Below, in pieces: positions 4,082 through 36,378 of a DNA stretch of 64,000 bases. The DNA comes from Candidatus Bathyoplasma sp. NZ (lineage in GTDB: Bacteria > Bacillota_I > Bacilli_A > MAG-NZ). Both the position numbers and the translations under genes were made by a program. The notes under the pieces were generated by a model. The model searched no databases. It saw nothing but the letters and a program-made list of their open reading frames with translations, and was not told the DNA's origin. Location of the stretch: contig JABENI010000011.1 of NCBI GenBank assembly GCA_013332095.1, positions 1-64,000 on the forward strand, given 5' to 3'. Position 1 is the first letter of the stretch, and every line of letters begins with the position of its first letter.

Positions 4082-4110
4082 TTGATTTTCTACTAATTTA
4101 GTGTTATTAT
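4082..4110 (+). promoter_or_regulatory. Sigma-A-type promoter of the HsdR_N-like nuclease gene
   Basis: TTGATT at 4082-4087 and TATTAT at 4105-4110 with a 17-base spacer, 20 bases upstream of the start codon and just before the GGAG ribosome-binding site at 4121-4124. Confidence 0.6.
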
Positions 4111-4130
4111 GTAAAAAAAAGGAGAATATT

Positions 4131-5189
4131 ATGACAAAAGATAGAATAAACGAATTTGCAAAACGCACTGCAGGATTACTTGATAAAATCAAAACGGAAG
4201 AAGCAACAAAAACTTCTTTGATTCTGCCATTTATCTCAATGTTAGGTTTTGACGTATTTAACCCTAACGAAGTTATCCCAGAATTTACTGCTGATGTAGG
4301 AATAAAAAAAGGAGAAAAGGTTGATTATGCAATAGTTATTGATGATGAACCACAAATACTTATTGAAGCAAAATCAGTGAATGACAAGTTAACAAAACAT
4401 GGAAGTCAACTTTTTAGATATTTTTCGACTACAAGTGCCAAGTTCGGAATACTAACAAATGGAATTATATATAAATTTTATACAGACTTAGAGGAAGCTA
4501 ATAAAATGGATATAGCACCATTCTTTGAATTCAATGTTTTGAATTTTAAAGATTATCAAGTAACAGAATTATCAAAGTTCCAAAAAGAGAATTTTGATGT
4601 CCACAATATTTTTAGTACTGCTGAACAATTAAAATATGTTTCTGAATTGAAAAAAACATTAAAATCTCAACTTGAAGAACCTGATGAAAAATTTATAAAA
4701 TTTTTAATGAATTATGTTTATGATGGTACTAAAACAGCAAGTAAAATCGAAAAATTTACACCAATAGTTAAAAAGGCAACAAAGCAATTATTCGCTGAAA
4801 TTATTCAAGACAAATTAAATAATGCTTTGAATATGTCAAATGAGGAACCTCCTCTAGTTAAGGCTGAAATAATTGAAGATCCTCAAGAAGATAAAATAGT
4901 AACAACTGAAGAAGAAATTGAAGGTTACTCTATAGTAAAAAGTATTTTAAGAAATGATTTTGAAGCCGATAGAATTACAAAAAAAGATACTGAATCATAT
5001 TTTTCGATTTTACTTGATAACAATGCTCGCAAATGGATTGTTAGACTTAAATTTAACTCATCACAAAAATATCTAGTTGTGAGAACTGGCAAAAAAGATA
5101 AAGAAAAATTTCCAATTGACTCATTATATGATATTTTTAAATACGAAGAGAACATTAAGAACACTTTAAATATTATTAACAGCCTTTAA
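4131..5189 (+). CDS. Stand-alone type I restriction R-subunit N-terminal (HsdR_N-like) nuclease-domain protein
   Basis: A 352-aa protein of the COG4748-type family: an HsdR N-terminal PD-(D/E)xK domain without helicase or methyltransferase partners. The nuclease core is at residues ~50-100: acidic VDYAIVIDD, then ILIEAKS, which supplies the E-x-K. A helical middle region and a compact C-terminal domain (about 260-350) follow. The ATG at 4131 is chosen because AGGAG lies 6 bases upstream; an in-frame ATG at 4101 lacks one. It stands alone in an accessory insert between direct repeats. Homologues are common in mobile regions and phages. A DNA-defence or nuclease role is inference; no hsdM or hsdS is nearby. 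Confidence 0.8.
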   Translation: MTKDRINEFAKRTAGLLDKIKTEEATKTSLILPFISMLGFDVFNPNEVIPEFTADVGIKKGEKVDYAIVIDDEPQILIEAKSVNDKLTKHGSQLFRYFSTTSAKFGILTNGIIYKFYTDLEEANKMDIAPFFEFNVLNFKDYQVTELSKFQKENFDVHNIFSTAEQLKYVSELKKTLKSQLEEPDEKFIKFLMNYVYDGTKTASKIEKFTPIVKKATKQLFAEIIQDKLNNALNMSNEEPPLVKAEIIEDPQEDKIVTTEEEIEGYSIVKSILRNDFEADRITKKDTESYFSILLDNNARKWIVRLKFNSSQKYLVVRTGKKDKEKFPIDSLYDIFKYEENIKNTLNIINSL

Positions 5190-13610: not shown

Positions 13611-13639
13611 TTTACATATTTACCATATAGATATAAAAT
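13611..13639 (+). promoter_or_regulatory. Promoter of cyclophilin lipoprotein copy 1
   Basis: TTTACA (13611-13616), 17-base spacer, TAAAAT (13634-13639). The same boxes with the same spacing precede copies 3, 4, 5 and 6. Confidence 0.75.
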
Positions 13640-13671
13640 GTAGTGAAGTGAAAAACATGGAGGTAAAAAAA

Positions 13672-14844
13672 ATGAAAAAATGTTTAATACTACTAACTAT
13701 TATTTTATTGCTTGTTGGATGCGATAAAATTGATAACAATGATCCCAACCCTAACGAACAAAATAGCGATTATGAGGCTCTTAAGGACGTGCCTTATTAT
13801 GAGTATTTGAATTCTTCAAATCCGACTGTTGAGTTTATTTTTAGCAACGATAGTAAAATTAAATTCGAACTTTTTAAAGATATTGCCCCTAACACTGTTA
13901 AAAATTTTTTATTATTAGCTAGCACAAATCACTATGATGGTACACTAGTTTATGCTAAAGATGAAGATTTTGTTCATTTAAAAAATGATAAATCAATACC
14001 TAATTCTTATATTGAAAGTACACGTACAGAAAATGGCCATGAAAATCCCGTTCCTTTCTCTCGTGGTACGATTTATTTATTCCCATATTCTGGTAATACT
14101 AACTTTGATCAGGTGAACGAATTAATGATTTCATTTGTGAATGACCATGAAGCAAATGGTAATTTCTCTATTTTTGGTGGCGTTGTAGAAGGACTAGATA
14201 CACTGACAGTTTTAGAACAATTAGAAACAGATGGAGTGGGATTAATCACCGAATCTGTTGAAATAACATCAATTAATATTGATGCTAAAGGTTTCGATTA
14301 TTCTGAATTAATTTTTAAAGATCCCCAATCATTTCGAGATGACGATAACCCGAGAGTTATAATAACTTTTGAAGATTCAGGAACGACTAATGATCCAAAG
14401 CCGAATACGATGAAATTAGAATTATTTCCTGAAGTTGCACCAGCAACGGTCGACAATTTCTTAACATTAGTTGAGGAGGAATTTTATGATGGTTTGTCAA
14501 TCTATAAAGTTATGGGTAATTCTATAGCTCAAGGAGGAGCAAATAATACTCCAGAAAATAGTGAGACAATTTTTGGAGAATTTTATAATAATAACTTTGA
14601 CAATGATTTAGATCACGTTAAGGGAGTAATTTCGATGCGTAGAAATCCTAACGAAATTGGATCGATTAAAGACCAATTCTTAATTTGTAATGATGATACT
14701 CCTATACTCAATAGAAAGAATGCAGCGTTTGGATACATGATTTCGGGATATGCCGTATTGGATGAAATAATGGCTAGTTCTACTGATGAAAATGGTATCC
14801 TATATAGTCCGATAATTATTGAAAAAATAGAACTTCTACCATAA
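13672..14844 (+). CDS. Two-domain cyclophilin-like lipoprotein, array copy 1
   Basis: 390 aa from the ATG at 13672, which has GGAGG 8 bases upstream; an in-frame ATG at 13648 lacks one. A lipoprotein signal peptide ends in LLLVGC with the lipidated Cys at 17. Two cyclophilin (peptidyl-prolyl isomerase) domains follow, about residues 48-205 and 230-390. Domain B has KLELFPEVAPATVDNFLTL, AQGG and GVISMRR, but the catalytic Arg position is Lys (SIYKVM) and the FxxQ motif is altered, so activity is doubtful. With copy 2 it is one of the two most diverged members. Likely anchored outside the membrane; a chaperone or binding role is inference. Confidence 0.88.
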   Translation: MKKCLILLTIILLLVGCDKIDNNDPNPNEQNSDYEALKDVPYYEYLNSSNPTVEFIFSNDSKIKFELFKDIAPNTVKNFLLLASTNHYDGTLVYAKDEDFVHLKNDKSIPNSYIESTRTENGHENPVPFSRGTIYLFPYSGNTNFDQVNELMISFVNDHEANGNFSIFGGVVEGLDTLTVLEQLETDGVGLITESVEITSINIDAKGFDYSELIFKDPQSFRDDDNPRVIITFEDSGTTNDPKPNTMKLELFPEVAPATVDNFLTLVEEEFYDGLSIYKVMGNSIAQGGANNTPENSETIFGEFYNNNFDNDLDHVKGVISMRRNPNEIGSIKDQFLICNDDTPILNRKNAAFGYMISGYAVLDEIMASSTDENGILYSPIIIEKIELLP

Positions 14845-15262
14845 GTAAACTAGTTCCAAATTAAGAATCATTTAAAGGTTCTTCTTAAGATAAATATTTG
14901 CGTTGTTTAAACTTCGCAGTTGAATTTATTTTAAAAGTTTATCTAGGCACAATCACTATTTTCTATAGAGTTCTTTCTTCAACAAATAGCCCTGTTTCTA
15001 TTAGTAATGAAACAGAGCTATTTTTTTATTGCCTGCAAAGGATTTTATATCTTTGATGAATGTTTCATTATTTCGCTAAACTTTAATAATTTTAGAAAAT
15101 TTACCAATGTAAATCGTTTCTATTAAAAATGCCGATCTAATTTTCCGAGCCTCTTTCGCAATAATATTAATAATAAATAAATCATCTTTATTTTGTTACT
15201 TATCTAGCAAGTATTTCATATATTAAAAATGAGACAACAAATAAAAAAAATGAGGCGAAAAA
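14845..15262 (+). other. Spacer between array copies 1 and 2
   Basis: 418 bases without a gene: a terminator at 14984-15027, then about 200 bases similar to the other spacers. The TTTACA/TAAAAT promoter conserved before other copies is degraded here (CAAGTATTTCATATATTAAAAATG). Confidence 0.6.
14984..15027 (+). terminator. Terminator after array copy 1
   Basis: AAATAGC(C)CTGTTTC, loop, GAAACAGAGCTATTT then TTTT. The same hairpin recurs after copies 2-5. Confidence 0.85.
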
Positions 15263-16432
15263 ATGAAAAAATTTTTATTATTACCATCACCTATTTTATT
15301 ATTGCTTACTTCTATTTTATTACTTGTCGGATGCAGTAAAACTTCAGATACTATAATACTTGAAGATGCTAGTTATTATCAATATTTGGATTCTTCAAAT
15401 CCAACGGTTGAGTTTGTTTTAAGTGATAACAGTAAAATCAAATTTGAGCTATTTAAAGATATAGCTCCTACTACTGTGAAAAACTTTTTATCACTGATTA
15501 GTGCAGGGTATTATGATGATACAGACTTTAATGAAAAATGCGATGTTTTCATCAGCGCATTCCAATTTAACAAAAATTTACCCAACTATACTATTAAAGG
15601 AGAATTTACAGAGAACGGTTATCAAAATCCACTTTCTTTTTCTGAAGGAATACTTGGCTTAATGCATAACCACTCTAACGATGATGGACTAAGTGAATTG
15701 TTCATCTCTTTTCAAAATATTCCTGAATTTGATGGGAAATTTGCTTATTTTGGTGGAGTTACTGAAGGCTTTTCTACATTAAAATTTTTACAAGATTTAA
15801 AACCTGATAGCGACGGCTTTATTCGTTCAAGTCTCAGAATAGATAAAGTTAATATTGATGCTAAAGGGTTTGACTATTCAACTTTTGAAAAAATTGAAAC
15901 GTTACCATTTGAGAACGCAATGACATTTTTAAATGACACTAACCCCAAAATTAAAATGACCATTAAAGATTTTGGAATTATGGAATTAGAATTATTTAAT
16001 GATGTTGCGCCAATAACGGTTGAAAATTTTTTAACATTAGTTGATGATAATTTTTATGATGGTTTAACAATATCAAATATTTTTGCAGGTCATTTTACTG
16101 GTGGTATTCCTACAAATGATCCTAGCAAAAGCACTGATGCTATTTTGGGCGAATTTTTTCACAATGGAGTCAATAACAACATAAGTCATGATAAAGGTGT
16201 TATTTCGATGTGGAGAGATGATGCATTTACTGATGAAGCTTTTAATTCTGCAACAAATAGATTTATAATTTGTAATGATGATTTACCAGTTTTAAATAAA
16301 TATTTTGCTGCTTTTGGTTATGTAGTTTCTGGACTTGATGTAGCAGATAAAATCGCAGCCGTTTCTTTTAATAGTACAACAGGTGCACCAAATATCCCTA
16401 TAATTATTGAAAAAATAGAGCGCATATCATAA
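15263..16432 (+). CDS. Two-domain cyclophilin-like lipoprotein, array copy 2
   Basis: 389 aa; signal peptide with two hydrophobic leucine-rich stretches ending LLLVGC (Cys 24), and GAGG upstream of the ATG. Domain A carries the shared SNPTVEFVLSDNSKIKFELF and PTTVKNFLSL. Domain B has MELELFNDVAPITVENFLTL and GVISMWRDD, but the Arg/FxxQ catalytic block is replaced (TISNIFAGHFTGG) and the QFF motif reads RFIIC, so both domains look catalytically dead. A retained fold with lost chemistry suggests binding or scaffolding (inference). It has its own terminator downstream; its upstream promoter is the weakest in the array. Confidence 0.86.
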   Translation: MKKFLLLPSPILLLLTSILLLVGCSKTSDTIILEDASYYQYLDSSNPTVEFVLSDNSKIKFELFKDIAPTTVKNFLSLISAGYYDDTDFNEKCDVFISAFQFNKNLPNYTIKGEFTENGYQNPLSFSEGILGLMHNHSNDDGLSELFISFQNIPEFDGKFAYFGGVTEGFSTLKFLQDLKPDSDGFIRSSLRIDKVNIDAKGFDYSTFEKIETLPFENAMTFLNDTNPKIKMTIKDFGIMELELFNDVAPITVENFLTLVDDNFYDGLTISNIFAGHFTGGIPTNDPSKSTDAILGEFFHNGVNNNISHDKGVISMWRDDAFTDEAFNSATNRFIICNDDLPVLNKYFAAFGYVVSGLDVADKIAAVSFNSTTGAPNIPIIIEKIERIS

Positions 16433-16563
16433 ATAAATTATAAATTAAAAATTATTTAAAAGCTTTTTAGTATCGGTATTTGAATTTTTTAAACTCCACA
16501 GTTAGATTTACTTTAATAATTCACTAAAGCACAATACTCTTTCTGTGGAGTTATTTATTTAAC

Positions 16564-16601
16564 AAATAGCCTGTTTCTAATAATGAAACAGACTATTTTT
16601 T
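16564..16601 (+). terminator. Terminator after array copy 2
   Basis: AAATAGCCTGTTTC, loop TAATAAT, GAAACAGACTATTTTTT. Same element as after copy 1. Confidence 0.8.
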
Positions 16602-16802
16602 ATTTCTAAACATTTTATATTTTTGATAAAAATTTCGTTACTTTGGATGAATTTTAACAACCTTTAAAAATTTACAAATTCGAAATGCTTCTCTTGAAAA
16701 TATTGATGAATTTTAGAAACTCTTTGACAAAGAATCAATAATAAAATAAATCATCTTCAGCGCATTATCAATTTAAAAAATAAAAGTACTCCATTTATTG
16801 TC

Positions 16803-16831
16803 TTTACAAACGCTTCATATACATATAAAAT
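16803..16831 (+). promoter_or_regulatory. Promoter of array copy 3
   Basis: TTTACA, 17-base spacer, TAAAAT, as before copies 1, 4, 5 and 6. Confidence 0.75.
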
Positions 16832-16876
16832 TATGTTGAGTAAAAATATAAAGAAAAATAAAAAATGAGGAAAAAA

Positions 16877-17995
16877 ATGAAAAAAATTTTATTAGTACTA
16901 ATAACTATTTTGTTACTTGTTGGATGCAATAATAATAGTAATAATGAACAACTTGAAAATACTGCTTATTACCAATATTTAAATGATTCCAACCCAACAG
17001 TCGAATTTACTTTAACTGATAACAGTAAAATCAAATTTGAACTATTTAAAGATCTGGCTCCAAATACTGTCAAAAGTTTTTTATCATTGGCCAGTACAGG
17101 TTATTTTGATGATACAACTCTTTTCAAAAATGAAAATGAAATTTTTGCAGAACAAACCGCTAAACCTTTACCCAATTACACCATTAAAGGGGAGTTTATA
17201 GCAAACGGATATGAAAATCCACTTACTATTTCCCGTGGAACACTTGTCTTATCTCATGGAATTATTAAAGATGATGGCATAAATCAATTTTTTATTCCTT
17301 TCATAGATAAATCAGTTGAAAATAGTCAACAATTCGCTGTTTTTGGCGGAGTTATTGAAGGTTTTGATACCTTGACAACTTTAGAAAACTTAGAGGCTAT
17401 TATTGATGATTTTAAAATAACAGCAGTTGAGATTGATGCTAAAGGATTGGACTATTCTACTTTTGAAAAAATTGATATATTAGAGTTTGAAGCTCCAGAA
17501 ATATTTCTAAATGACACTAATCCAAGAGTTAAAATAACTTTTAAAGATTATGGGATAATGGAGTTAGAATTATTTCCTGATATTGCACGTATCACAGTTG
17601 ATAATTTCTTATCATTAGTTGATAATAAATTTTATGATGGTTTAATGATGCATGAAATTATTGAAAATTTTATAATTAAGGGTGGACAGCCCATAGGTGA
17701 TATTACTGCCGATTCAATTGTCGGAGAAATTTATAACAATGGAGTCAACAATAACTTAAGTCACCTTAGAGGAGTTATCTCAATGGAAAAGGCTAAAAAT
17801 AATAATGCGTTTGATTCTGATAGCAGTCAATTCTTTATTTGTCATAAGGATGCAACGTTTTACGATAAAAATTATGCTGGTTTCGGCTATTTAATTTCAG
17901 GATTTGATGTATTAGATAAAATTGCAACTGTTTCTACTGACAATTATAAACCGGTCACTGATGTAATTATAGAAAAAATTGAGAGTATCCGATAA
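16877..17995 (+). CDS. Two-domain cyclophilin-like lipoprotein, array copy 3
   Basis: 372 aa from the ATG at 16877 (TGAGG 6 bases before; the in-frame ATG at 16865 overlaps that site). Signal peptide ends LLLVGC, followed by an Asn-rich linker NNNSNNEQ. Domain A has NPTVEFTLTDNSKIKFELF and NQFFIPF. Domain B has MELELFPDIARITVDNFLSL, GVISMEK and SSQFFICHKD. In B the Arg of the cyclophilin active site is Glu (MHEIIENF) and the FMxQ Gln is Lys (IIKGG), so isomerase activity is unlikely although the core is kept. Clearly a close relative of copies 4-6. Confidence 0.88.
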   Translation: MKKILLVLITILLLVGCNNNSNNEQLENTAYYQYLNDSNPTVEFTLTDNSKIKFELFKDLAPNTVKSFLSLASTGYFDDTTLFKNENEIFAEQTAKPLPNYTIKGEFIANGYENPLTISRGTLVLSHGIIKDDGINQFFIPFIDKSVENSQQFAVFGGVIEGFDTLTTLENLEAIIDDFKITAVEIDAKGLDYSTFEKIDILEFEAPEIFLNDTNPRVKITFKDYGIMELELFPDIARITVDNFLSLVDNKFYDGLMMHEIIENFIIKGGQPIGDITADSIVGEIYNNGVNNNLSHLRGVISMEKAKNNNAFDSDSSQFFICHKDATFYDKNYAGFGYLISGFDVLDKIATVSTDNYKPVTDVIIEKIESIR

Positions 17996-18066
17996 ATAAA
18001 ATTGAATTTACTTTAAAAATTAACGAAAGATTAATCACTATTTTATCTAGAGTTCTTTCTTTAATA

Positions 18067-18110
18067 GATAGCCTTTTTCTAATAATAATGAAACAGGGCT
18101 ATTTTTTTTA
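18067..18110 (+). terminator. Terminator after array copy 3
   Basis: ATAGCC..TTTTTC, loop, GAAACAGGGCTAT then TTTTTTT; a slightly weaker form of the shared hairpin. Confidence 0.7.
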
Positions 18111-18310
18111 TGCCAAACATTTTATACACTTGGTGAAAATAACATCATTTCCGGAAAACTTTAACAGTTTTTGAAAATTTGCAAATTCGAAATGATTCTC
18201 TTAAAAATGTTGATAGAATTTTATAAACTCTTTGACAATATAATCAATAATAAAATAAATCATCTTCAGCGTATTATTAATTTAGAAAATAAAAGAATCC
18301 TTTTATTTCC

Positions 18311-18339
18311 TTTACAAACTCTTCATATACATATAAAAT
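18311..18339 (+). promoter_or_regulatory. Promoter of array copy 4
   Basis: TTTACA, 17 bases, TAAAAT; preserved although the gene behind it is broken. Confidence 0.7.
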
Positions 18340-18386
18340 TATATTGAGGGTAAAAATAAAGAAAAATAAAAAATGAGGAAAAAAAA

Positions 18387-19533
18387 ATGAAAAAAATTTT
18401 ATTAGTACTAATTATTTTGTTGCTTGTTGGATGCAGTAAAACTCAGGAACAACTTATATATAAGGAATATCTTACATATGGGGAACAACTTATGGATACA
18501 AATTATTACCAATATTTAAATGATTCAAACCCAACAGTTGAATTTACTTTAACTGATAACAGTAAAATCAAATTTGAACTATTTAAAGATACAGCTCCTA
18601 ATACTGTCAAAAGTTTTTTATCATTGGCTAGTACAGGTTATTTTGATGATACAATACTTCATTCCAAAAGTGAAGATTTTATTTTTGCAGAACAAAAAGA
18701 GAAACCTTTACCTGATTACACCGTTGTAGGGGAGTTTATATCAAACGGATATGAAAACCCACTTACTATTTCTCGTGGAACACTTGTTTTACATCATGGA
18801 GGTACTAATTACGATGATGGGATAAATATGTTTACTATTCAATTCACAGATGAATTAGCTGAAATAAGCGATGAATTCGCTGTTTTCGGAGGGATTATTG
18901 AAGGTTTTGATGGGTTAACAACTTTAGAAAACTTGGAGGATGCTACAAATTATGATGATGCAGTTACTGATTTTAAAATAACATCAGTTGAGATTGATGC
19001 CAAAGGATTTGACTATTCTACTTTTGAAAAAATTGAAAAATCAGAATAAAAAGATCTAGAACCATTTTTAAATGACGCTAACCAGAGAGTTAAAATAACT
19101 TTTAAAGATTAGGGACAATGGAATTAGAATTATTTCCTAATGTTGCATCTGTCTCAGTTGAAAATTTCCTAACATTAGTTGACAACAAATTTTATGATGG
19201 TTTAACAATGGAAAACTTTATCATTCAAGGTGGATGTTCTACAGATGATGCTGTTGATTCAATTATCGGTGAATTTCCAAACGATGGAGGCAACAACAAC
19301 TTATATCACTTAGAGGTGTTATCTCAAATGGCTAGAACTGAAGATTCCTCTATTATGCTAGCAGTCAATTCTTTATTTTCGATAAAAACTCACTACATTT
19401 AGATAAAGATTATGAAGTTTTCGGTTATTTAATTTCAGGATTTAATGTATAAAAAGCAATTGCAACTGCTTCTACTGACAATTTAAACCCCATCACTGAT
19501 GTAATTATAAAAAAAATTGAACTTATCCGATAA
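18387..19533 (+). pseudogene. Broken two-domain cyclophilin lipoprotein, array copy 4
   Basis: The first 220 codons (signal peptide LLLVGC, complete domain A) are intact, then an in-frame TAA stops translation at 19047-19049. The rest of domain B is recognisable but damaged: TAG at 19110-19112 where copies 3 and 5 have Tyr, a lost base near 19309 (HLE instead of HFRGV), further small indels, and a TAA near 19449. The catalytic stretch is shortened (LTMENFIIQGG). A truncated one-domain lipoprotein of 220 aa could still be made from its intact promoter and ribosome-binding site. The longest domain-B fragment is 19118-19402. Confidence 0.88.
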
Positions 19534-19604
19534 ATAAAGTTAAATTTACTTTAAAAACTTACCAAAGACCAATCACTATTTTAGCTAGAGTTCTTTCTTT
19601 AATA

Positions 19605-19647
19605 AGTAGCCTGTTTCCAATAACAATGAAACAGAGCTATTTTTTTA
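19605..19647 (+). terminator. Terminator after array copy 4
   Basis: AGTAGCCTGTTTC, loop, GAAACAGAGCTATTTTTTT; intact although the gene before it is broken. Confidence 0.75.
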
Positions 19648-19851
19648 TTGCCAAACATTTTATACGCTTGACGAAAATTTGATCATTTTCGGAGAATTTT
19701 TGCAACTTTAAAAAATTTACAAATGATAGAATGATTCTCTTAAAAACGCCGATACAATTTTACGAAACTATTTGACAATAGAATCAATAACAAAATAAAT
19801 CATCTTCAGCATATTATCAATTTAGAAAATAAAAATATTCCATTTATCTTC

Positions 19852-19880
19852 TTTACAAACACTTGATATACGTATAAAAT
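19852..19880 (+). promoter_or_regulatory. Promoter of array copy 5
   Basis: TTTACA, 17 bases, TAAAAT, matching the other copies. Confidence 0.75.
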
Positions 19881-19919
19881 TATATTGAGATAAAAATAAA
19901 GAAAAAATGAGGAAAAAAA

Positions 19920-21044
19920 ATGAAAAAAATTTTATTATTATTAATAACTATTTTATTGCTTGGTGGGTGCAATAATGATAAGGAACAACTTGAAAATGCT
20001 GGTTATTACCAATATTTAAATGATTCAAACCCAACAGTTGAATTTACTTTAACTGATAACAGTAAAATTAAATTTGAACTATTTAAAGATATTGCTCCTA
20101 ATACTGTCAAAAGTTTTTTATCATTGGCTAGTACAGGTTATTTTAATGGTACACAATTTCTTTATAAAAATGAAAATGAAATTTATGCAGGACAAATCGA
20201 TAAAGATTTACCTGATTACACCCTTATAGGGGAGTTTACAGCAAATGGATATGAAAACCCACTTAATATTTCTCGTGGAACACTTGTTTTATCTCATGGG
20301 AAGAATAATTACTATAATGGGATAAATCAATTTTTTATTCCCTTCACAGATGAACTGGTTGAATTGAGCGAAAAATACGCTGTTTTTGGTGGAATCACTG
20401 AAGGTTTTGATGCGTTGACAACTCTAGAAAATTTGGAGATGACTGTAAATGATGAAATTGCTAATGATTTTAAAATAACATCAATTGAGATTGATGCCAA
20501 AGGATTAGACTATTCTACTTTTAAAAAAATTGAAGATTTTGAATTTAAAGTTCCAGAAACATTTCTAAATGATGCTAACCCGAGAGTTAAAATAATTTTT
20601 AAAGATTACGGAACAATGGAATTAGAATTATTTCCTGAAGTTGCACCTGTCTCTGTTGAAAATTTCTTAACATTAGTTGATGATAATTTTTATGATGGTT
20701 TAACGATGCACAGAATTATTAAAGACTTTATGATTCAAGGTGGACGTTCTACAGGTGATGCTGTTGATTCAATTGTCGGAGAATTTTCAAACAATGGAGT
20801 TAACAACAACTTAACTCACTTTAGAGGTGTTATCTCGATGGCTAGAACTACTCCTAATTCTGCTAGTAGTCAATTCTTTATTTGCCATAAAGACAAATTC
20901 CATTTAGATAAAAATTACGCAGCTTTCGGTTATTTAATTTCAGGATTTGATGTATTAGATGCAATTGCAACTGTTCCTACTGGTGCAAATGATAAACCAA
21001 TCACTGATGTATTTATAGAAAAAATTGAACGCATCGATAAATAA
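19920..21044 (+). CDS. Two-domain cyclophilin lipoprotein, array copy 5 (catalytic residues kept in domain B)
   Basis: 374 aa; signal peptide ends LLLGGC (Cys 17). Domain A (about 35-195) lacks the active-site Arg block but keeps NQFFIPF. Domain B (about 220-374) is the most canonical in the array: MHRIIKDFMIQGG supplies the equivalents of human CypA Arg55, Phe60, Met61 and Gln63 (here 265, 270, 271, 273), and SSQFFI supplies Gln111/Phe113 (318, 320). Leu122 is conserved (329); the Trp121 position is His, as in many bacterial enzymes of low cyclosporin affinity. This is probably the only active prolyl isomerase here, acting on exported proteins at the outer membrane face of the cell (inference). 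Confidence 0.92.
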   Translation: MKKILLLLITILLLGGCNNDKEQLENAGYYQYLNDSNPTVEFTLTDNSKIKFELFKDIAPNTVKSFLSLASTGYFNGTQFLYKNENEIYAGQIDKDLPDYTLIGEFTANGYENPLNISRGTLVLSHGKNNYYNGINQFFIPFTDELVELSEKYAVFGGITEGFDALTTLENLEMTVNDEIANDFKITSIEIDAKGLDYSTFKKIEDFEFKVPETFLNDANPRVKIIFKDYGTMELELFPEVAPVSVENFLTLVDDNFYDGLTMHRIIKDFMIQGGRSTGDAVDSIVGEFSNNGVNNNLTHFRGVISMARTTPNSASSQFFICHKDKFHLDKNYAAFGYLISGFDVLDAIATVPTGANDKPITDVFIEKIERIDK

Positions 21045-21110
21045 AGTTGGATTTACTTTAAAAACTTACCAAAGACCAATCACTATTTTATCTGGAGTTC
21101 TTTCTTTACC

Positions 21111-21150
21111 AAATAGCCTGTTTCTAATAATAATGAAACAGGGCTATTTA
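21111..21150 (+). terminator. Terminator hairpin after array copy 5, T tract lost
   Basis: AAATAGCCTGTTTC, loop, GAAACAGGGCTATTT, followed by AAACATTTT rather than a run of T. The stem is perfect but the tail is worn, so read-through into copy 6 is possible. Confidence 0.6.
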
Positions 21151-21346
21151 AACATTTTATGTCCATACTGAAAAATTTGTTATTTTCAGCAAACTTTAGC
21201 AATTTTTGAAAATTTACAAATTCGAAATAATTCTCTTAAAAATGTTGATAGTATTTTAGAAACTCTTTGACAATAGAATCAATAATAAAATAAATCATCT
21301 TCAGTGCATTATCAATTTAGAAAATAAAAATATTCCATTTAATATC

Positions 21347-21375
21347 TTTACAAATGCTTCATATACATATAAAAT
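21347..21375 (+). promoter_or_regulatory. Promoter of array copy 6
   Basis: TTTACA, 17 bases, TAAAAT. Confidence 0.7.
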
Positions 21376-21420
21376 TACATTGAGATAAAAATAAAGAAAA
21401 ATCAAAAATGAGGAAAAAAA

Positions 21421-22505
21421 ATGAAAAAAATTTTATTACTACTAATAACTATTTTATTACTTGTTGGATGCAATAATAATAATAATAATAATGAACAACT
21501 TGAAAATACTGCTTATTACCAATATTTAAATGATTCCAACCCAACAGTCGAATTTACTTTAACTGATAACAGTAAAATTAAATTTGAACTATTTAACGAT
21601 ATTGCTCCTAATATTGTCAAAAGTTTTTTATCATTGGCTAGTACAGGTTATTTTGATGATACACGATTTCGTTCCAAAACTGAAGATAGACTTATGGCAA
21701 GACAAAACACTCCTTTACCTGATTACATCCTTAGAGAGGAGTTTTCAGAAAACAGTTATGAAAATCCCCTTATTATTTCTCGTGGAACACTTGTTTTATA
21801 TAATGAAATAGATGGAATAAATCAATTTTTTATTCCCTTCACAGAATTGAGCGAAGATTCCACTGTTTTTGGTGGAATTATTGAAGGTTTTGATACCTTG
21901 ACAACTTTAGAAAATTTGGAAACTGACATATTCACTAGTAATTTTAAAATAACATCAATTGAGATTGATGCCAAAGGATTGGATTATTCTACTTTTCAAA
22001 AAATTGAATAATTAGAATTTAAAAGTCCTAAACGTTTTTAAACAATATTAATCTGTTAATTAAAATAACTGTAAAAGATTATGGAATATTGAAGTTAGAA
22101 TTATTTCCTGATGTCGCACCTATTACAGCGGAAAATTTCTTAACATTAATTGACAATAAATTTTATGACAACTTACTAATCGACGTAATTGAAAAAAACA
22201 TTAAGATTCAACGTGGGACTCCTAATTACAATACTGTTGATCCAATTGTCGAAGAATTTTATAAAATGGAGTCCAGCAACAACTTAAGTCATTTTAGAGG
22301 TGTTATTTTATCAACCAAATTCTGCTACTAGTAATTTCTTTATTTGCCAAAAAGACCAACATATCTTTTGATAAAAGATATGTTGCTTTTGGTTATTTAA
22401 TTTCAGAATTTGATGTATTAGATGTAATTGGAACTATTTCTAGTAGATGATGCAACAGCAGCAATCACTGCTGTAATTATCGAAAAAATTGAACGTATCC
22501 GCTAA
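21421..22505 (+). pseudogene. Broken two-domain cyclophilin lipoprotein, array copy 6
   Basis: The first 196 codons encode a signal peptide (LLLVGC), a run of seven Asn codons and a full domain A, ending at TAA 22009-22011. Domain B remains as fragments: a frame change follows the stop, then 22089-22331 carries KLELFPDVAPITAENFLTL and FRGVI, then more indels to a final ERIR and TAA at 22503-22505. The catalytic stretch is lost (IEKNIKIQRG). Unlike other copies it has no terminator after it; the peroxiredoxin gene begins about 40 bases later, so the usual spacer was deleted. A 196-aa one-domain product is possible. Confidence 0.88.
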
Positions 22506-22546: not shown

Positions 22547-23005
22547 ATGAACTACTTAAATATTGTATTAACGGCAAATGATGAAAAAGAATATTCTTTA
22601 AACGACTTCAAAGGTAAATATATAATTTTGTATTTTTATCCTAAAGACAACACTGAAGGATGTAGTTTAGAAGCCCAAGAATTTACGCATTATAAAGATG
22701 AATTTAGATCTTTAAGTGCTGAGATAATCGGAATAAGTAAAGACTCAGTCGCCTCACATATTAAATTTACAAAGAAAAAAGAATTAGCTATTCTTCTTCT
22801 ATCGGATTGCGATTTATTACTACAAAAACAGTTTGAAGTTTGGCAACTAAAAAAAATGTGTGGTAAAGAATATATGGGAACTGTTAGAAGTACATTTATT
22901 TTAAATACTAAAGGTGAAATTATAAAAGAATATCGTAATGTTCGAGTGAAAAACCATGTCACTAATGTATTAAAAGATTTTAAAAATTTATCTGGAGATG
23001 AGTAA
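22547..23005 (+). CDS. bcp: Peroxiredoxin, BCP/PrxQ family
   Basis: A 152-aa thiol peroxidase that reduces peroxides. The thioredoxin fold has ILYFYPKDNTEGCSLEAQEF around the peroxidatic Cys; the usual Pro before Gly is Glu, and the common resolving Cys five residues later is Gln, so it is a one-Cys or differently resolving form (other Cys occur in LLSDCDLL and KKMCGKEYMG). TVRSTFILNTKGEI is family-typical. AGGAGG precedes the ATG. The next gene (OsmC-like) begins 2 bases after its stop, a two-gene peroxide-defence operon. Confidence 0.9.
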   Translation: MNYLNIVLTANDEKEYSLNDFKGKYIILYFYPKDNTEGCSLEAQEFTHYKDEFRSLSAEIIGISKDSVASHIKFTKKKELAILLLSDCDLLLQKQFEVWQLKKMCGKEYMGTVRSTFILNTKGEIIKEYRNVRVKNHVTNVLKDFKNLSGDE

Positions 23006-23007
23006 AA

Positions 23008-23403
23008 ATGATTAAAGCAAAAACAACTTTTAAAAGTGGTCCGTATGAGGGAACCGTTGAAACTGAAAGATTTTTAATTCCTGTAAATATGAAACAACAA
23101 GGTGTGCAACCTTATGAAATGTTGTACGGATCCTTAGCAACTTGTATTCATGCTAATGTTAGCAATTTAACTGAAAAAATGAGATTACAATTTTCTGAAA
23201 TAACCTATGATATTACCGGAATTAAAGCTGATAAAATTCCAGCATTATTAACAAATTGTAATATTGATATTGAAGTGTTTGGCGTAGCAAAAGAAAATGA
23301 AGAGAAATTTTTCAAAGCTATCCATAAAGCGTTTGAATATTGTTCTATCTACAATACTATCGGAGCCATAGCGAAAATGAGTTCAACAATTACCTTTAAA
23401 TAA
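23008..23403 (+). CDS. OsmC/Ohr family protein
   Basis: A 131-aa OsmC-fold protein with the two family cysteines in GSLATCIHANV and FEYCSIYNTI. OsmC/Ohr proteins reduce organic hydroperoxides through these thiols. It is translationally coupled to the peroxiredoxin upstream and followed by a bidirectional terminator, consistent with a shared oxidative-stress role in an anaerobe. The subfamily (YhfA-like rather than Ohr) is uncertain. Confidence 0.88.
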   Translation: MIKAKTTFKSGPYEGTVETERFLIPVNMKQQGVQPYEMLYGSLATCIHANVSNLTEKMRLQFSEITYDITGIKADKIPALLTNCNIDIEVFGVAKENEEKFFKAIHKAFEYCSIYNTIGAIAKMSSTITFK

Positions 23404-23404
23404 A

Positions 23405-23431
23405 AACTGAGATTTCTCTCAGTTTTTTTTA
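23405..23431. terminator. Bidirectional terminator between the OsmC and NUDIX genes
   Basis: ACTGAGA, loop, TCTCAGT with T runs in both directions; it serves the convergent genes on either side. Confidence 0.85.
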
Positions 23432-24049
23432 TTCAAAGTATGCTAAATCACCTTTTCGATGATTTTTTAATACCAAATTTAACTCTTCTAAACTAGTTTT
23501 ATTTGACAACGGTGGTAAATCATTTAAATCGAACCAAGAAACTTTTTTTATTTCAAAATTCGGATTATTTTCTCCACCAACAATCGTCGATAAAAAATAA
23601 ATATTATACACGCTGTACAGTTGACTATTTTTATAAAAATCAGCATTTTGAATTGCTAGTAATTTAGTGATTTCAATTTCGTAACCAGTCTCTTCTTTTG
23701 CTTCTTTTTTCGCCGCTTGTAAAGGTGAATCCCCAATATCACACCAACCTCCTGGTAACGACCATTTTCCATTATCCTTGATGTTTGCTTCTTGAACTAG
23801 TAAGATTTTATGATTGTCAATAATTATATTTCTCACACACGGTTGTGGAGTAGGATAAAACATATCTTGGTAAATATTATAGGGTTGACATTCTAAATTG
23901 ATATATTCTTTAAGCATCTTAGTACTAAGATCTAACAATTCTTGATAATTATCCAATGCGTATTCATCTTTTGAATAGACCGTTCCGATATGGGCTATAC
24001 TATTAACTTTTTTTATAAATTCAAATATTTTATCTCTCATCTTTATCAC
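23429..24049 (-). CDS. NUDIX hydrolase with Nudix_N domain
   Basis: A 206-aa protein with an N-terminal helical segment (about 1-65) like the Nudix_N domain of ADP-ribose/nucleoside-diphosphate-X hydrolases, then the NUDIX fold. The Nudix box is LPGGWCDIGDSP...KKEAKEETGY: the metal-binding EAKEE is intact, and the upstream Glu position is Asp as in this subfamily. It should hydrolyse a nucleoside diphosphate linked to another moiety; the substrate is unknown. Convergent with the OsmC gene and downstream of spo0A's neighbourhood but in a separate unit. Confidence 0.88.
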   Translation of the reverse strand: MIKMRDKIFEFIKKVNSIAHIGTVYSKDEYALDNYQELLDLSTKMLKEYINLECQPYNIYQDMFYPTPQPCVRNIIIDNHKILLVQEANIKDNGKWSLPGGWCDIGDSPLQAAKKEAKEETGYEIEITKLLAIQNADFYKNSQLYSVYNIYFLSTIVGGENNPNFEIKKVSWFDLNDLPPLSNKTSLEELNLVLKNHRKGDLAYFE

Positions 24050-24106
24050 CTATAAAATCATCTTATCTTTTTTACAACTACAATTTAAACCATCTGCTTA
24101 CTATAT

Positions 24107-24136
24107 CAAAAAATGCTAGAAATTTCTAGCATTTTA
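24107..24136 (-). terminator. Terminator of spo0A
   Basis: Perfect hairpin AAATGCTAGAAATTTCTAGCATTTTTT on the minus strand right after the spo0A stop codon. Confidence 0.85.
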
Positions 24137-24137
24137 A

Positions 24138-24920
24138 TTAAGAAGCTACTTTGTGTTCCAGTCTCAATTTATCAGCAATCATTGCGATAAATTCGGAATT
24201 AGTAGGTTTTGATTTATTATAACTTATTGTGTAACTGAAAATGCTACTAATTGCATCTACATTTCCACGATTCCAAGCCACCTCAATAGCATGTCTAATT
24301 GCTCTTTCTACTCTTGAAGAAGTTGTCTTAAACTTTCTTGCTACTTCAGGATACAACACTTTGGTAATTCCACCTAATAACTCTATATTCATGTAAACCA
24401 TTGTTATTGCTTCTCTTAAATATAAATAACCTTTAATGTGCGCTGGTACTCCTATTTCATGTAATATACTAGTAATTTCGCTGTCCAAAGAAATTGTTAA
24501 ATTATTTAAACTAAATATTTTATTATTATTAGAATTAATATTAGTACTACATAATTTATTAATAGTTTCAATAATTTTACTAATTTCAAACGGTTTTACA
24601 ATAAAATAATCTGCGCCTAAACTAGCGGCATCTCTCATTACTAAATCACTGTTAAATGCTGTTAACATGATTATTTTATTTGGTTTATAATAATTATTAG
24701 TCTGTTTTACTGCTTTTAAAACATCTATTCCTTCAAAATCTGGCATACAATTGTCTAGTAACAAAATATCAACCTTAGTATACTTTAAAATGTTTAAAGC
24801 ATCTTTTCCATTATATGCAACTCCTACTACTTCGATACTTTCTTCAAGTTGAAGACCTTCACTTAACATTGTAACTACTTCTTTATTGTCATCGACAATG
24901 AAAACTTTTATTTTATTCAT
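24138..24920 (-). CDS. spo0A: Sporulation master response regulator Spo0A
   Basis: 260 aa from the ATG at 24920 (AGGAGG 6 bases upstream; an ATG three bases earlier is possible). The receiver domain (1-120) has the acidic pair in FIVDDNKE, phospho-acceptor Asp 56 in [13 protein letters not shown], and YFIVKPF. The C-terminal Spo0A domain (about 145-260) has [16 protein letters not shown] and the DNA-recognition helix [15 protein letters not shown]. Once phosphorylated it starts sporulation by binding 0A boxes; one lies about 105 bases upstream of its own start. It is downstream of spoIVB as in Bacillus, but the promoter between them suggests separate control. Confidence 0.97.
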
Positions 24921-24941
24921 CATATTCCTCCTACAAGAATA

Positions 24942-24970
24942 ATTTTACAGCGTTTGCAATCTTTTTTCAA
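24942..24970 (-). promoter_or_regulatory. Promoter of spo0A
   Basis: On the minus strand TTGAAA, 17-base spacer, TAAAAT, ending about 20 bases before the spo0A start. Confidence 0.6.
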
Positions 24971-25026
24971 TAAATTATAAATGATTACTACTTTACCTAA
25001 AAAATAATTGCCTTTTTAGTAAATTA

Positions 25027-25033
25027 TTCGACA
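25027..25033 (-). promoter_or_regulatory. Spo0A box (TGTCGAA) upstream of spo0A
   Basis: A perfect match to the core 0A box on the minus strand, about 60 bases upstream of the putative -35 box. A second near-match, TGTCGAT, lies on the plus strand at 25060-25066, between here and spoIVB. Autoregulation of spo0A through such boxes is known in Bacillus; here it is inferred from position and sequence. Confidence 0.55.
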
Positions 25034-25079
25034 AATGATTTCATAATTAAAGGCAGTCTTGTCGATTTTTGTCATATAA

Positions 25080-26054
25080 TTAGGTCAAAAAAACATCGTT
25101 ATCTTCTAGCATCCACTCAATATAAATTCCATATCCCATTTCTGGGCTATTTACTAGAACATGCGTAATTGCTCCAATTATTTTATCATTTTGAATAATT
25201 GGTGAACCACTCATTCCTTGTATAATTCCTCCTGTTTTATCCAGTAGTCTCTCATCAGTAATTTTTATTTTCATGCTTTTCGTGCTCTTTTCCGATTGTT
25301 TTTCTAATTTAACAATTTCAATTTCAAATTTTTCAATTTCAGACCCTTCTATAACAGTCCAAATTTCTGCTTTCCCTGTCTTAATTTCATCTCGTGATGC
25401 GATTGGCATTAAAGGAAGGTTTTTTAGAGTGTCATCAGTGACATTTCCGTACACTCCCGTATCAGTGTTTTTAATTATTTTACCCAAGCTATTTTCACCG
25501 ATTTTAGCGCGTTTTCCACCTGGTTTACCAATTTGTCCTTTTTTGATGCTCTTAATCGTAGAATCTTTAATTTCACCCTCTATTGTTTCTCTTCCTTTAT
25601 CAATACTATGACCTAGTGAACCAAATAAGGTATATTCGGGTAAAACATAAGTTAAAGTTCCTACACCAGCTATTCTATCAATTAATCTTACGCCTATTTT
25701 ATTTTTTCCGTCCACTACTAATGGTTTTACAACAACTATTTTTGTCTGTGATCCTCTTTGCAAAACAATTTTAAAAAGATCTTTGTCTTTTTTTAATTCT
25801 CTTGTTACATCTCTTAAGTTGTTAATATTAGTCCCATTTATTATTATAATTTTATCTCCAATCAAAATACCGGCTTCTCTAGCTGGACTTTCTCCATCTC
25901 CCTCAACAAATTTTTCTACTACTACTCCAGTGTCCAACATTATCGCTATTGATTGTCCACTTGGAGAGATGTCTAAATCATCTTTATCAACCTCTAAAGC
26001 GTTTACGCTCGGTATTAATGCGAATAATAAAGCAATTAAAATTTTAACTTTCAA
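25080..26054 (-). CDS. spoIVB: SpoIVB signalling serine peptidase
   Basis: 324 aa. N-terminal signal/membrane segment (1-19), PDZ domain (about 35-115, containing AREAGILIGDKIIIING) and S55 peptidase domain with catalytic His in FGSLGHSID (149) and Ser in the QGMSGSPII motif (280-285). In the forespore it is secreted into the intermembrane space and cleaves SpoIVFA, which releases SpoIVFB to process pro-sigma-K; both partners are at 58.8-59.9 kb. Located between recN and spo0A as in Bacillus subtilis. Somewhat shorter than the ~425-aa Bacillus protein, with the N-terminal linker reduced. Confidence 0.96.
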   Translation of the reverse strand: MKVKILIALLFALIPSVNALEVDKDDLDISPSGQSIAIMLDTGVVVEKFVEGDGESPAREAGILIGDKIIIINGTNINNLRDVTRELKKDKDLFKIVLQRGSQTKIVVVKPLVVDGKNKIGVRLIDRIAGVGTLTYVLPEYTLFGSLGHSIDKGRETIEGEIKDSTIKSIKKGQIGKPGGKRAKIGENSLGKIIKNTDTGVYGNVTDDTLKNLPLMPIASRDEIKTGKAEIWTVIEGSEIEKFEIEIVKLEKQSEKSTKSMKIKITDERLLDKTGGIIQGMSGSPIIQNDKIIGAITHVLVNSPEMGYGIYIEWMLEDNDVFLT

Positions 26055-26118
26055 TTTTACTCCTTTCTTTACAGGCTATTTATATTATTAGCATTTTAGC
26101 GAAAATAATTATTTTCAA

Positions 26119-27789
26119 TTAATGGAAAAGATTTTCTTCAAGTAAACTTTTCGCGTGTTCTAGCGATGATTTCGTTATATCATCACCTGATAACATTTTT
26201 GCAATTTCCAAAATTCTTTCTTCTTTTGTTAAAGTTTTTGAACTGGAAACTGTTCGACCAGCAATAATTTTCTTGCTAACGTGAAGATGATGGTCTGCTT
26301 GTGCTGCTACTTGTGGCAAATGAGTTATTAATAACACTTGCGTTGATTCTGAAATTATCTTTATTTTTTTTGCTATTGAACTAGCAATAAAGCCACTAAC
26401 TCCAGTGTCAATTTCATCAAAGATAATAGTTGACAATTTTTGAGATTTAATTAAAACAGTTTTTAAAGCTAACATTATTCTACTAATCTCACCACCTGAA
26501 GCAGTTTTGTTCAATGATTTTAGTGGTTCTCCTTGATTAGTTGTGACTAAAAAGTCAATTTCATCAACACCGTCTCGTTTAAAAATATTTTTAAATTTAT
26601 CAGCGTATTTTGTTTCGTTAAAGATAATTTTAAAATCAGCATTACTCAATTCTAAGTCACCGAGATGAATAATTAACTCTCGCGATAACTTTAAAGCAGA
26701 TTTTTTACGCATTATAGTAATATTTTGTGCATTTAAAGCAACTTTATCATAAAAACTTTCTACCATTTTTTTACCTTTATTAATAGCAAACTCTGCACCG
26801 TCCAATTGATCTATTTTAAGGTTAATTTCTTCTAAATATATTACTAACTCACCGATGTCTTTTCCATATTTTTTTTTGATTTTTTTTATTTCACTCAGAC
26901 GCTCTTGAATATTCGAAAGTTCATAAGGACTAAATTCTAAACTTCTAAGTTTATCACTAATATTTATCGCTACTTCTTCTAATTCATAGTAAATATTTTC
27001 CAATCTTTTAGAAAAATCTTTATATTCATTGTCTAACTCACTTAAATTATCAAGACTATTTTTTGCATTGTAAATATTGGCAACTGCATTTTTTTCTTTT
27101 AAACATTTAGTAGCAGTAGATAAATTTTGGTAAATTTTATCAAAGTTTTCTAACTGTATTTGTCTTTCATTTAATTCAATTTCTTCATCTTTATTAAGTG
27201 ATAATTTTTCTAATTCTGCTTTTTGAAAAGCATAAAAATCCAATTCTTTTTTTGCATCATCAATTGAATTGATAATATTGTTATATTCTTTTAATTTTTT
27301 TGTGTATTCTATTAACGAACTTTTATATTCAGTAAAATCATAACTGCTAAAACTATCTAGTATTTCTAAATAATTACTTTCTTTAATTAAGCGATGGGTG
27401 TCGTGTTGTAAGTGAATGTCAATAAGATATTTACTGATGTTTTTAAAAATAGACAAAAGAACAATACTTCCGTTAATTTTCAAAGTCGTACCATTTTTTG
27501 TAAGTTTTCTAGTTATAATAATTTTTTGATCTACTTCGATGTCGTTTTCTTCCATCAATTCAAATAATTTACGATTATTTGAGGTAAATACCCCTTCAAT
27601 AATTGCTTTTTCTTCATTGTATCTAATCATCTCTAAGGAAGCTCGATTTCCTAAAAGCAAACCGATAGCATCGATAATAATCGTTTTTCCTGCCCCAGTT
27701 TCTCCTGTTAAAACTGTCAGCCCTCTAGAAAACTCTATTTCTGTGTTTTCGATTATCGCAAAATTTTTAATTTTTATACTTTCTAACAT
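26119..27789 (-). CDS. recN: DNA repair ATPase RecN
   Basis: A 556-aa SMC-like protein: Walker A GETGAGKT near residue 30, long coiled-coil middle (about 150-370), signature ASGGEISRIMLALK, Walker B STIIFDEIDTGVSG. It acts early in double-strand break repair by recombination. Downstream of tlyA with 2 bases between them; the ahrC (argR) gene that usually separates the two is absent. Confidence 0.97.
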   Translation of the reverse strand: MLESIKIKNFAIIENTEIEFSRGLTVLTGETGAGKTIIIDAIGLLLGNRASLEMIRYNEEKAIIEGVFTSNNRKLFELMEENDIEVDQKIIITRKLTKNGTTLKINGSIVLLSIFKNISKYLIDIHLQHDTHRLIKESNYLEILDSFSSYDFTEYKSSLIEYTKKLKEYNNIINSIDDAKKELDFYAFQKAELEKLSLNKDEEIELNERQIQLENFDKIYQNLSTATKCLKEKNAVANIYNAKNSLDNLSELDNEYKDFSKRLENIYYELEEVAINISDKLRSLEFSPYELSNIQERLSEIKKIKKKYGKDIGELVIYLEEINLKIDQLDGAEFAINKGKKMVESFYDKVALNAQNITIMRKKSALKLSRELIIHLGDLELSNADFKIIFNETKYADKFKNIFKRDGVDEIDFLVTTNQGEPLKSLNKTASGGEISRIMLALKTVLIKSQKLSTIIFDEIDTGVSGFIASSIAKKIKIISESTQVLLITHLPQVAAQADHHLHVSKKIIAGRTVSSSKTLTKEERILEIAKMLSGDDITKSSLEHAKSLLEENLFH

Positions 27790-36161: not shown

Positions 36162-36374
36162 AAAAAAATCCCCCCTCATATGTTAAGGGCGAAAGTATCC
36201 GCGGTACCACCTTAATTCTAGTTAAAAACTAGCACTAAGACTTTTAACGCAAGTCTGACGTTATTTTTCAAATACCTTTTAGTAGCGTCTTTAAAATTAA
36301 TCTTTAAAACATTTGCACCAACCATGTTCTCTCTAAATAAACGATTAATTTTATTTTCTACATCAACAAGTTTA
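36162..36374 (-). promoter_or_regulatory. T-box riboswitch leader of hisS-aspS
   Basis: The minus-strand RNA has the T-box sequence AAGGTGGTACCGCGG (36199-36213), followed by a hairpin from CGCCCTT and GAGGGGGG with TTTTTTT (terminator, about 36162-36193). Upstream is stem I with the AGAGAG element and a GGTTGGTGCAA apical loop. At the base of stem I, GTAG pairs with CTAC and AAATTAAT with ATTAATTT, leaving TAAAGACG in the specifier loop. The codon in the expected place is GAC (Asp). Uncharged tRNA pairing here and through NCCA with the T-box sequence would prevent termination. Confidence 0.9.
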
Positions 36375-36378
36375 ACTC

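Follow-up and report, generated by a model that had tools for sequence, protein, structure and literature searches.

A six-copy array of cyclophilin lipoprotein genes in Candidatus Bathyoplasma sp. NZ appears to have turned a folding enzyme into mostly non-catalytic surface proteins

What becomes of an exported folding enzyme when its gene is multiplied in place? The question is raised by 64,000 nucleotides of Candidatus Bathyoplasma sp. NZ (assembly GCA_013332095.1, contig JABENI010000011.1, positions 1 to 64,000; this whole stretch is called the window), in which six consecutive plus-strand units encode lipoproteins made of cyclophilin-like domains. A first-pass annotation, made from the sequence alone, had described these units, and the six ATG codons at which it began them stand (Table 1). 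In the array, a foldase gene has been amplified to an unusual extent; catalysis is predicted to be lost from nearly all domains, and reading frames are retained. Because most copies seem to be selectively maintained despite their lost active sites, a former folding enzyme appears to have given rise to a family of surface proteins that do not catalyze.

The proteins are cyclophilins by several measures. PF00160 matched all six above the Pfam cut-off (E from 1e-14 to 1e-64). It found two stretches in copies 1, 2, 3, and 5, and all 10 intact domains matched individually. The structure prediction that the first-pass annotation had called for was run on copy 3, using an alignment of the array copies and their relatives. 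The AlphaFold model has two cyclophilin-type folds (mean pLDDT 84, pTM 0.66), and its best Foldseek matches in the PDB were cyclophilins (E about 1e-14). We call the N-terminal domain D1 and the C-terminal domain D2. Two domains had been claimed for every unit, and this is so for copies 1, 2, 3, and 5. However, in copies 4 and 6 a stop codon interrupts the D1-D2 linker, at positions only a few codons apart, and frameshifted remnants of D2 follow. All six copies have an N-terminal lipobox signal peptide (LLLVGC or LLLGGC), as had been proposed, and Lgt is encoded in the genome (PF01790, E 2.5e-70, G000:C10, where G000 is the window genome). With six units, the locus is a tandem paralogous lipoprotein cluster, defined as at least three adjacent same-strand homologues. 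Copy 1 has an alternative start at GTG 13648; its ATG at 13672 is the one that aligns with the other copies.

We surveyed the active sites of 98 domains at eight positions in human CypA numbering (R55, F60, M61, Q63, A101, Q111, F113, and L122), which we assigned through conserved motifs. Within the array, only D2 of copy 5 has all eight residues, and each of the remaining nine intact domains has between one and three. The picture in relatives is very different. All eight were present in the single domain of G001 and in both domains of G002, two genomes of the same family but other genera. Among 85 further relative domains, 72 had all eight and 11 had seven (83 of 85 with at least seven). By the canonical residues expected of an active prolyl isomerase, D2 of copy 5 qualifies and the other nine intact domains do not, making it the array's one probable active peptidyl-prolyl isomerase (PPIase) domain. 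The suggestion that the family consists of extracytoplasmic foldases therefore survives for that domain only, and the residue survey rules out six active foldases. One ordinary cytosolic cyclophilin is encoded elsewhere in the genome (G000:C15, about 79.3-79.8 kb).

Loss of catalytic residues has not been followed by general decay. Copies 1 to 3 differ from copy 5 by 16-33% and contain no stop or frameshift, whereas neutral simulation at 15-33% divergence gave a mean of 8-17 stops and not a single stop-free run. By codon maximum likelihood, the ratio of nonsynonymous to synonymous substitution rates (omega) of D1 was about 0.1 in copies 1 and 2 (a rough value) and 0.23 in copy 3, and that of D2 in copies 1 to 3 was about 0.2, similarly rough for copies 1 and 2. 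All were significantly below 1. Constraint on D1 is uneven. In copies 3 to 6, omega was 1.1-1.2 in the 24 codons of the old pocket versus 0.35 elsewhere (p about 1e-6 for the difference), and counting gave a pN/pS of 1.6 in pocket-equivalent codons versus 0.5 elsewhere. The best-kept part of the scaffold is the first 46 codons. These values indicate that the D1 scaffold is kept and that its old pocket is free or diversifying. Counting was suggestive of positive selection on the pocket, but we do not claim it because the maximum likelihood estimate was not significantly above 1 (p = 0.5-0.65). Pocket codons of D2 were too saturated for an estimate.

Copies 4 and 6 differ in fate between their domains. 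Relative to copy 5, all eight of their indels in D1 are in frame, whereas 10 of 13 in D2 shift the frame (Fisher p = 0.001). No copy has a broken D1, and two have a broken D2. Outside the pocket, omega of D1 in copies 4 and 6 was 0.44 (p = 0.015 against 1). D1 thus seems to be the part of these copies that is kept, weakly. The comparison of dN/dS between copies, which the first-pass annotation had recommended, revealed constraint in copies 1 to 3 and a nearly neutral D1 in copies 4 and 6. We looked for the recombination between copies that would mark a phase- or antigen-varying cassette array. Conflicting partition signals did not cluster among copies 3 to 6 (p = 0.48), which gives no sign of gene conversion there, and copies 3 and 6 share an identical block of 93 bases.

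Where did the array come from? G002 has one two-domain cyclophilin lipoprotein, with a lipobox and the same D1-linker-D2 layout, and G001 has one single-domain cyclophilin lipoprotein with a lipobox. In both, osmC lies next downstream on the same strand as the lipoprotein gene, although G002 has one opposite-strand gene in between. Nearby are DegV and NUDIX genes in G002 and rpsD and DegV in G001. Gene order in the window is DegV, array, bcp, osmC, and NUDIX. Gene order thus identifies the array as orthologous to a single-copy cyclophilin lipoprotein gene beside osmC in the two informative genomes of the family. A weak match in G003, another genome of the family, was an unrelated short lipoprotein. 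In trees, the array D1s group as a single clade on a stem of 1.24-1.31 changes per site, so D1 is judged to have lost its active site before the amplification. D2 of copy 5 sits closest to the catalytic relatives by branch length, and divergence is greatest in copies 1 and 2. Our D1 profile scored the array D1s at 272-303 bits and its best match in any other genome searched at 118 bits. No second genome with the array type of D1 was found among all genomes searched with it. A domain duplication shared with G002 fits the array D1 profile scores (114 bits for G002 D1 versus 94 for D2), and the trees neither require nor reject it. We rejected a mobile origin: the D1 family had no relative in viral contigs, and plasmid and phage collections gave only remote cyclophilins.

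The window genome has 14 PF00160 matches, of which 13 are pieces of the array (six D1, an intact D2 from each of four copies, and remnants of two D2, about twelve domains in all) and one is elsewhere. No other genome of the 395 sampled in the class exceeds four. This copy number and the single-copy syntenic locus in G001 and G002 therefore give good support to the proposal that a family of extracytoplasmic cyclophilin lipoproteins has expanded locally.

We also aligned the units with their flanks. Identity among copies 3 to 6 was 86-90% in the upstream DNA, 82-87% across D1, and 79-85% across D2 (the last excluding the decayed copy 6). Between copies, intergenic DNA matches as closely as coding DNA does. 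Therefore, the duplicated unit is the gene plus its flanks, and the first-pass annotation was right to include regulatory DNA in it. It was also right that five of six units share a promoter-like site; TTTACA-17-TAAAAT was not found before copy 2. The claim that copies 1 to 5 end in the same terminator fared less well. All five have the common hairpin, but a terminator role is plausible but weak because the fifth has no T run and a consensus terminator scan picked just one hairpin, at 16571. The common hairpin was not found after copy 6, and bcp begins about 40 bases beyond its D2 remnant, followed by osmC. Therefore, with no such hairpin intervening, the copy 6 promoter may drive bcp and osmC. 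If it does, this would be a reason to keep the promoter even were the copy 6 protein useless. In G001, the cyclophilin gene ends 7 bases before osmC, so the coupling to osmC may be old.

The array, its lost catalytic residues, its shared descent, its pattern of constraint, and the decay of D2 in copies 4 and 6 are all shown by the sequence. Our preferred reading, to which we give about an even chance, is that lineage-specific birth-and-death amplification made an extracytoplasmic foldase into binding or chaperone lipoproteins that are mostly non-catalytic, with copy 5 likely still an isomerase. An ordinary cyclophilin lipoprotein beside osmC, an extracytoplasmic prolyl isomerase, would have become two-domain. 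In this lineage, D1 would then have lost its active site and kept the cyclophilin scaffold, and the gene, together with promoter and hairpin, would have been tandemly amplified to six. The products would be expressed and exported, then lipid-modified at the lipobox cysteine and held at the outer side of the membrane. Copy 5 would be the one probable isomerase. Copies 1 to 3, maintained without an active site, would most likely bind exported proteins as non-catalytic chaperones or partner-binding modules. Copies 4 and 6 would have lost D2 at the linker and would persist, perhaps weakly constrained, as D1-only lipoproteins.

The role of the copies that we predict to be dead is inferred by analogy. 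Pneumolysin is bound and folded by pneumococcal PrsA even though that protein has no PPIase activity and lacks key residues (PMC11853100). The parvulin domain of such proteins (PF13616/PF00639) had no match in the window genome or in three genomes of the same family, although a highly diverged PrsA could escape this search and G001 and G003 are incomplete. It was present in 13-14 of 30 genomes searched. With no parvulin detected in the family, the cyclophilin lipoprotein is a candidate for its main extracytoplasmic prolyl isomerase, a job that copy 5 would keep here.

Several points weigh against the preferred reading. Synonymous sites are saturated between copies 1 and 2 and the rest, which is why their omega values are rough. 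Across D1 as a whole, omega in copies 4 and 6 was 0.65, not different from 1 and near-neutral, and these two copies may be dying. In addition, client binding by dead cyclophilin domains is argued from a parvulin protein, not from a cyclophilin. A rival reading is plain birth and death of redundant duplicates: only copy 5 would work, the others would be at different stages of decay, and active-site loss would be simple relaxation. The clear decay of D2 in copies 4 and 6 agrees with this, as do an omega of about 1 in the old D1 pocket and of 0.94 in D1 of copy 4 alone. However, decay alone fails to explain copies 1 to 3, whose frames are intact and whose omega is low at high divergence, and it sits poorly with the contrast between a broken D2 and a D1 that is open in every copy, its indels in copies 4 and 6 being all in frame. 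We consider it unlikely, although worth keeping in view. A variable surface repertoire, with a conserved scaffold and a diversified former pocket that binds various host, competitor, or extracellular ligands, in the manner of tandem clusters like the lpl lipoprotein genes of Staphylococcus aureus, which serve in host interaction, is a similarly unlikely alternative. The contrast between pocket and scaffold in copies 3 to 6 would suit it, and so would the separate promoters, the lipoprotein anchors, and the fact that lpl also has a conserved block flanked by variable parts (PMC4470592). But since pocket omega is not significantly above 1, release of constraint suffices, and we saw no sign of exchange between copies 3 to 6. 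The data thus separate these explanations only in part: decay falls short for copies 1 to 3, and diversifying selection is not proven. More speculatively, and in our view doubtful, D1 might be a new non-catalytic cyclophilin subtype whose old proline pocket is now a diversifying ligand-binding surface, the array being a private repertoire of surface binders drawn from an ancestral foldase. If true, this would be an enzyme-to-binder conversion caught in progress, with an active domain (D2 of copy 5) still in the array.

Two further explanations carry little weight. Amplification of an active foldase for dosage, raising extracytoplasmic isomerase capacity, would make sense in a family with no detectable parvulins and for copies that mostly have a promoter-like site of their own. 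It is very improbable, contradicted by a residue survey in which most catalytic residues are gone from nine of the ten intact domains, and the copies diverge by 13-36%. An assembly artefact, which the first-pass annotation had named as a possible refutation, might be feared in a draft of 44 contigs. But even the closest copies are 13-16% apart, and no exact repeat is longer than the 93-base block. Divergence and exact repeats rule an artefact out for practical purposes, and the flanking DegV, osmC, and NUDIX genes come in the same order in G002.

The features of the array and the genes directly downstream are collected in Table 1. Farther on, at 23429-27789 on the minus strand, genes for Spo0A and a SpoIVB-type peptidase neighbor the array in this low-GC (28%) organism, which therefore belongs to a lineage that bears sporulation genes. 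The sole Rfam match in the window is a T-box leader RNA at 36182-36375 (minus strand). At 4101-5189 (plus strand) is a gene for a 362-amino-acid protein with only a type I restriction HSDR_N-like nuclease domain.

Table 1. Features of the cyclophilin lipoprotein array and adjacent genes (positions in the window; aa, amino acids; fractions are active-site residues present out of eight)
Feature	Position	Strand	Details
Copy 1 promoter-like site TTTACA-17-TAAAAT	13611..13639	+	
Copy 1, two-domain cyclophilin-like lipoprotein	13672..14844	+	390 aa; D1 1/8, D2 3/8
Hairpin and T run after copy 1	14988..15027	+	
Copy 2, two-domain lipoprotein	15263..16432	+	389 aa; D1 2/8, D2 1/8; lacks the common promoter
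Hairpin and T run after copy 2	16568..16601	+	
Copy 3 promoter-like site TTTACA-17-TAAAAT	16803..16831	+	
Copy 3, two-domain lipoprotein	16877..17995	+	372 aa; D1 2/8, D2 3/8
Hairpin and T run after copy 3	18070..18109	+	
Copy 4 promoter-like site TTTACA-17-TAAAAT	18311..18339	+	
Copy 4, D1-only lipoprotein	18387..19049	+	220 aa; linker stop 19047-19049; D1 1/8
Copy 4 decayed D2	19050..19535	+	Six frameshifting indels, in-frame stops
Hairpin and T run after copy 4	19608..19646	+	
Copy 5 promoter-like site TTTACA-17-TAAAAT	19852..19880	+	
Copy 5, two-domain lipoprotein	19920..21044	+	374 aa; D1 3/8, D2 8/8
Hairpin after copy 5	21115..21149	+	T run lost
Copy 6 promoter-like site TTTACA-17-TAAAAT	21347..21375	+	
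Copy 6, D1-only lipoprotein	21421..22011	+	196 aa; linker stop 22009-22011; D1 3/8
Copy 6 decayed D2	22012..22505	+	Four frameshifting indels, stops
Bcp/AhpC-TSA-type peroxiredoxin	22547..23005	+	Directly downstream of array
OsmC-like protein	23008..23403	+	In G001 and G002, too, a homologue follows the cyclophilin lipoprotein

This locus matters for several reasons. Few non-catalytic relatives of prolyl isomerases have been documented in bacteria. A literature search combining cyclophilin with "pseudoenzyme" gave nothing on point, and neither did searches for two-domain, amplified, or pseudo-cyclophilins in bacteria. Here, a single locus spans a series from an active domain through dead but constrained domains to decaying remnants, and close relatives hold the single-copy active ancestor. 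The array therefore allows a direct test of selected roles for cyclophilin folds without isomerase activity. It also bears on whether a cyclophilin lipoprotein replaces PrsA where parvulins are undetected.

Fusion and tandem duplication of cyclophilins are already known, and what is new here is their extent and outcome. No described locus with six adjacent double-domain surface lipoproteins was known to the first-pass annotation. The double-domain architecture itself is not unique, being present with both domains active in G002, Oscillospiraceae, Ruminococcus, and other Clostridia. The number of copies greatly exceeds that of every other case seen. The orthologues in G001 and G002 share the genomic position and lipobox of the array, but each is a single copy with a complete active site in every domain. 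Two-domain cyclophilins of Oscillospiraceae and Ruminococcus (loci L045, L046, L080, L083, and L084) are fusions like those of the array, with domains that are nearly all catalytic. Small tandem clusters (G145, G317, G327, L048, L054, L078, and L085) have two or three genes, at most three versus six, and include two degenerate exceptions, one of the L048 pair (4/8) and one of the L078 pair (5/8). Those of G145 and G317 (genus code g53) are three adjacent single-domain genes, mostly for lipoproteins, with near-canonical sites (L150, 1587-3605, minus strand; L151, 1235-3177, plus strand). In the same genus, G349 and G065 encode lipoproteins of 376 and 405 amino acids whose C-terminal cyclophilin is degenerate and lacks the HRI/QGG motif (L148, 1459-2589; L139, 1456-2673; both minus strand), apparently an independent case of a dead surface cyclophilin.

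Among characterized systems, the lpl cluster of S. aureus (vSa-alpha) also consists of tandem paralogous lipoprotein genes in the same orientation, which combine a conserved block with parts that vary (PMC4470592). However, lpl proteins are not cyclophilins by their published description, and the likeness is one of arrangement only. Streptococcus pneumoniae PrsA is a PPIase-family lipoprotein without catalytic residues, but it is a parvulin encoded by one gene. SlrA of S. pneumoniae and PpiA of Streptococcus pyogenes (membrane-anchored in Lactococcus lactis) are, like the array proteins, exported and membrane-anchored cyclophilins. PPIase activity has been measured for these surface lipoproteins (PMC11853100, PMC3307742), and an 18-residue insertion specific to SlrA has been described (PMC3307742). 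D2 of copy 5 keeps the canonical active site, as in SlrA/PpiA-type lipoproteins. But SlrA and PpiA are treated as single enzymes, whereas the array has two domains, six copies, and degenerate active sites in nine of its ten intact domains.

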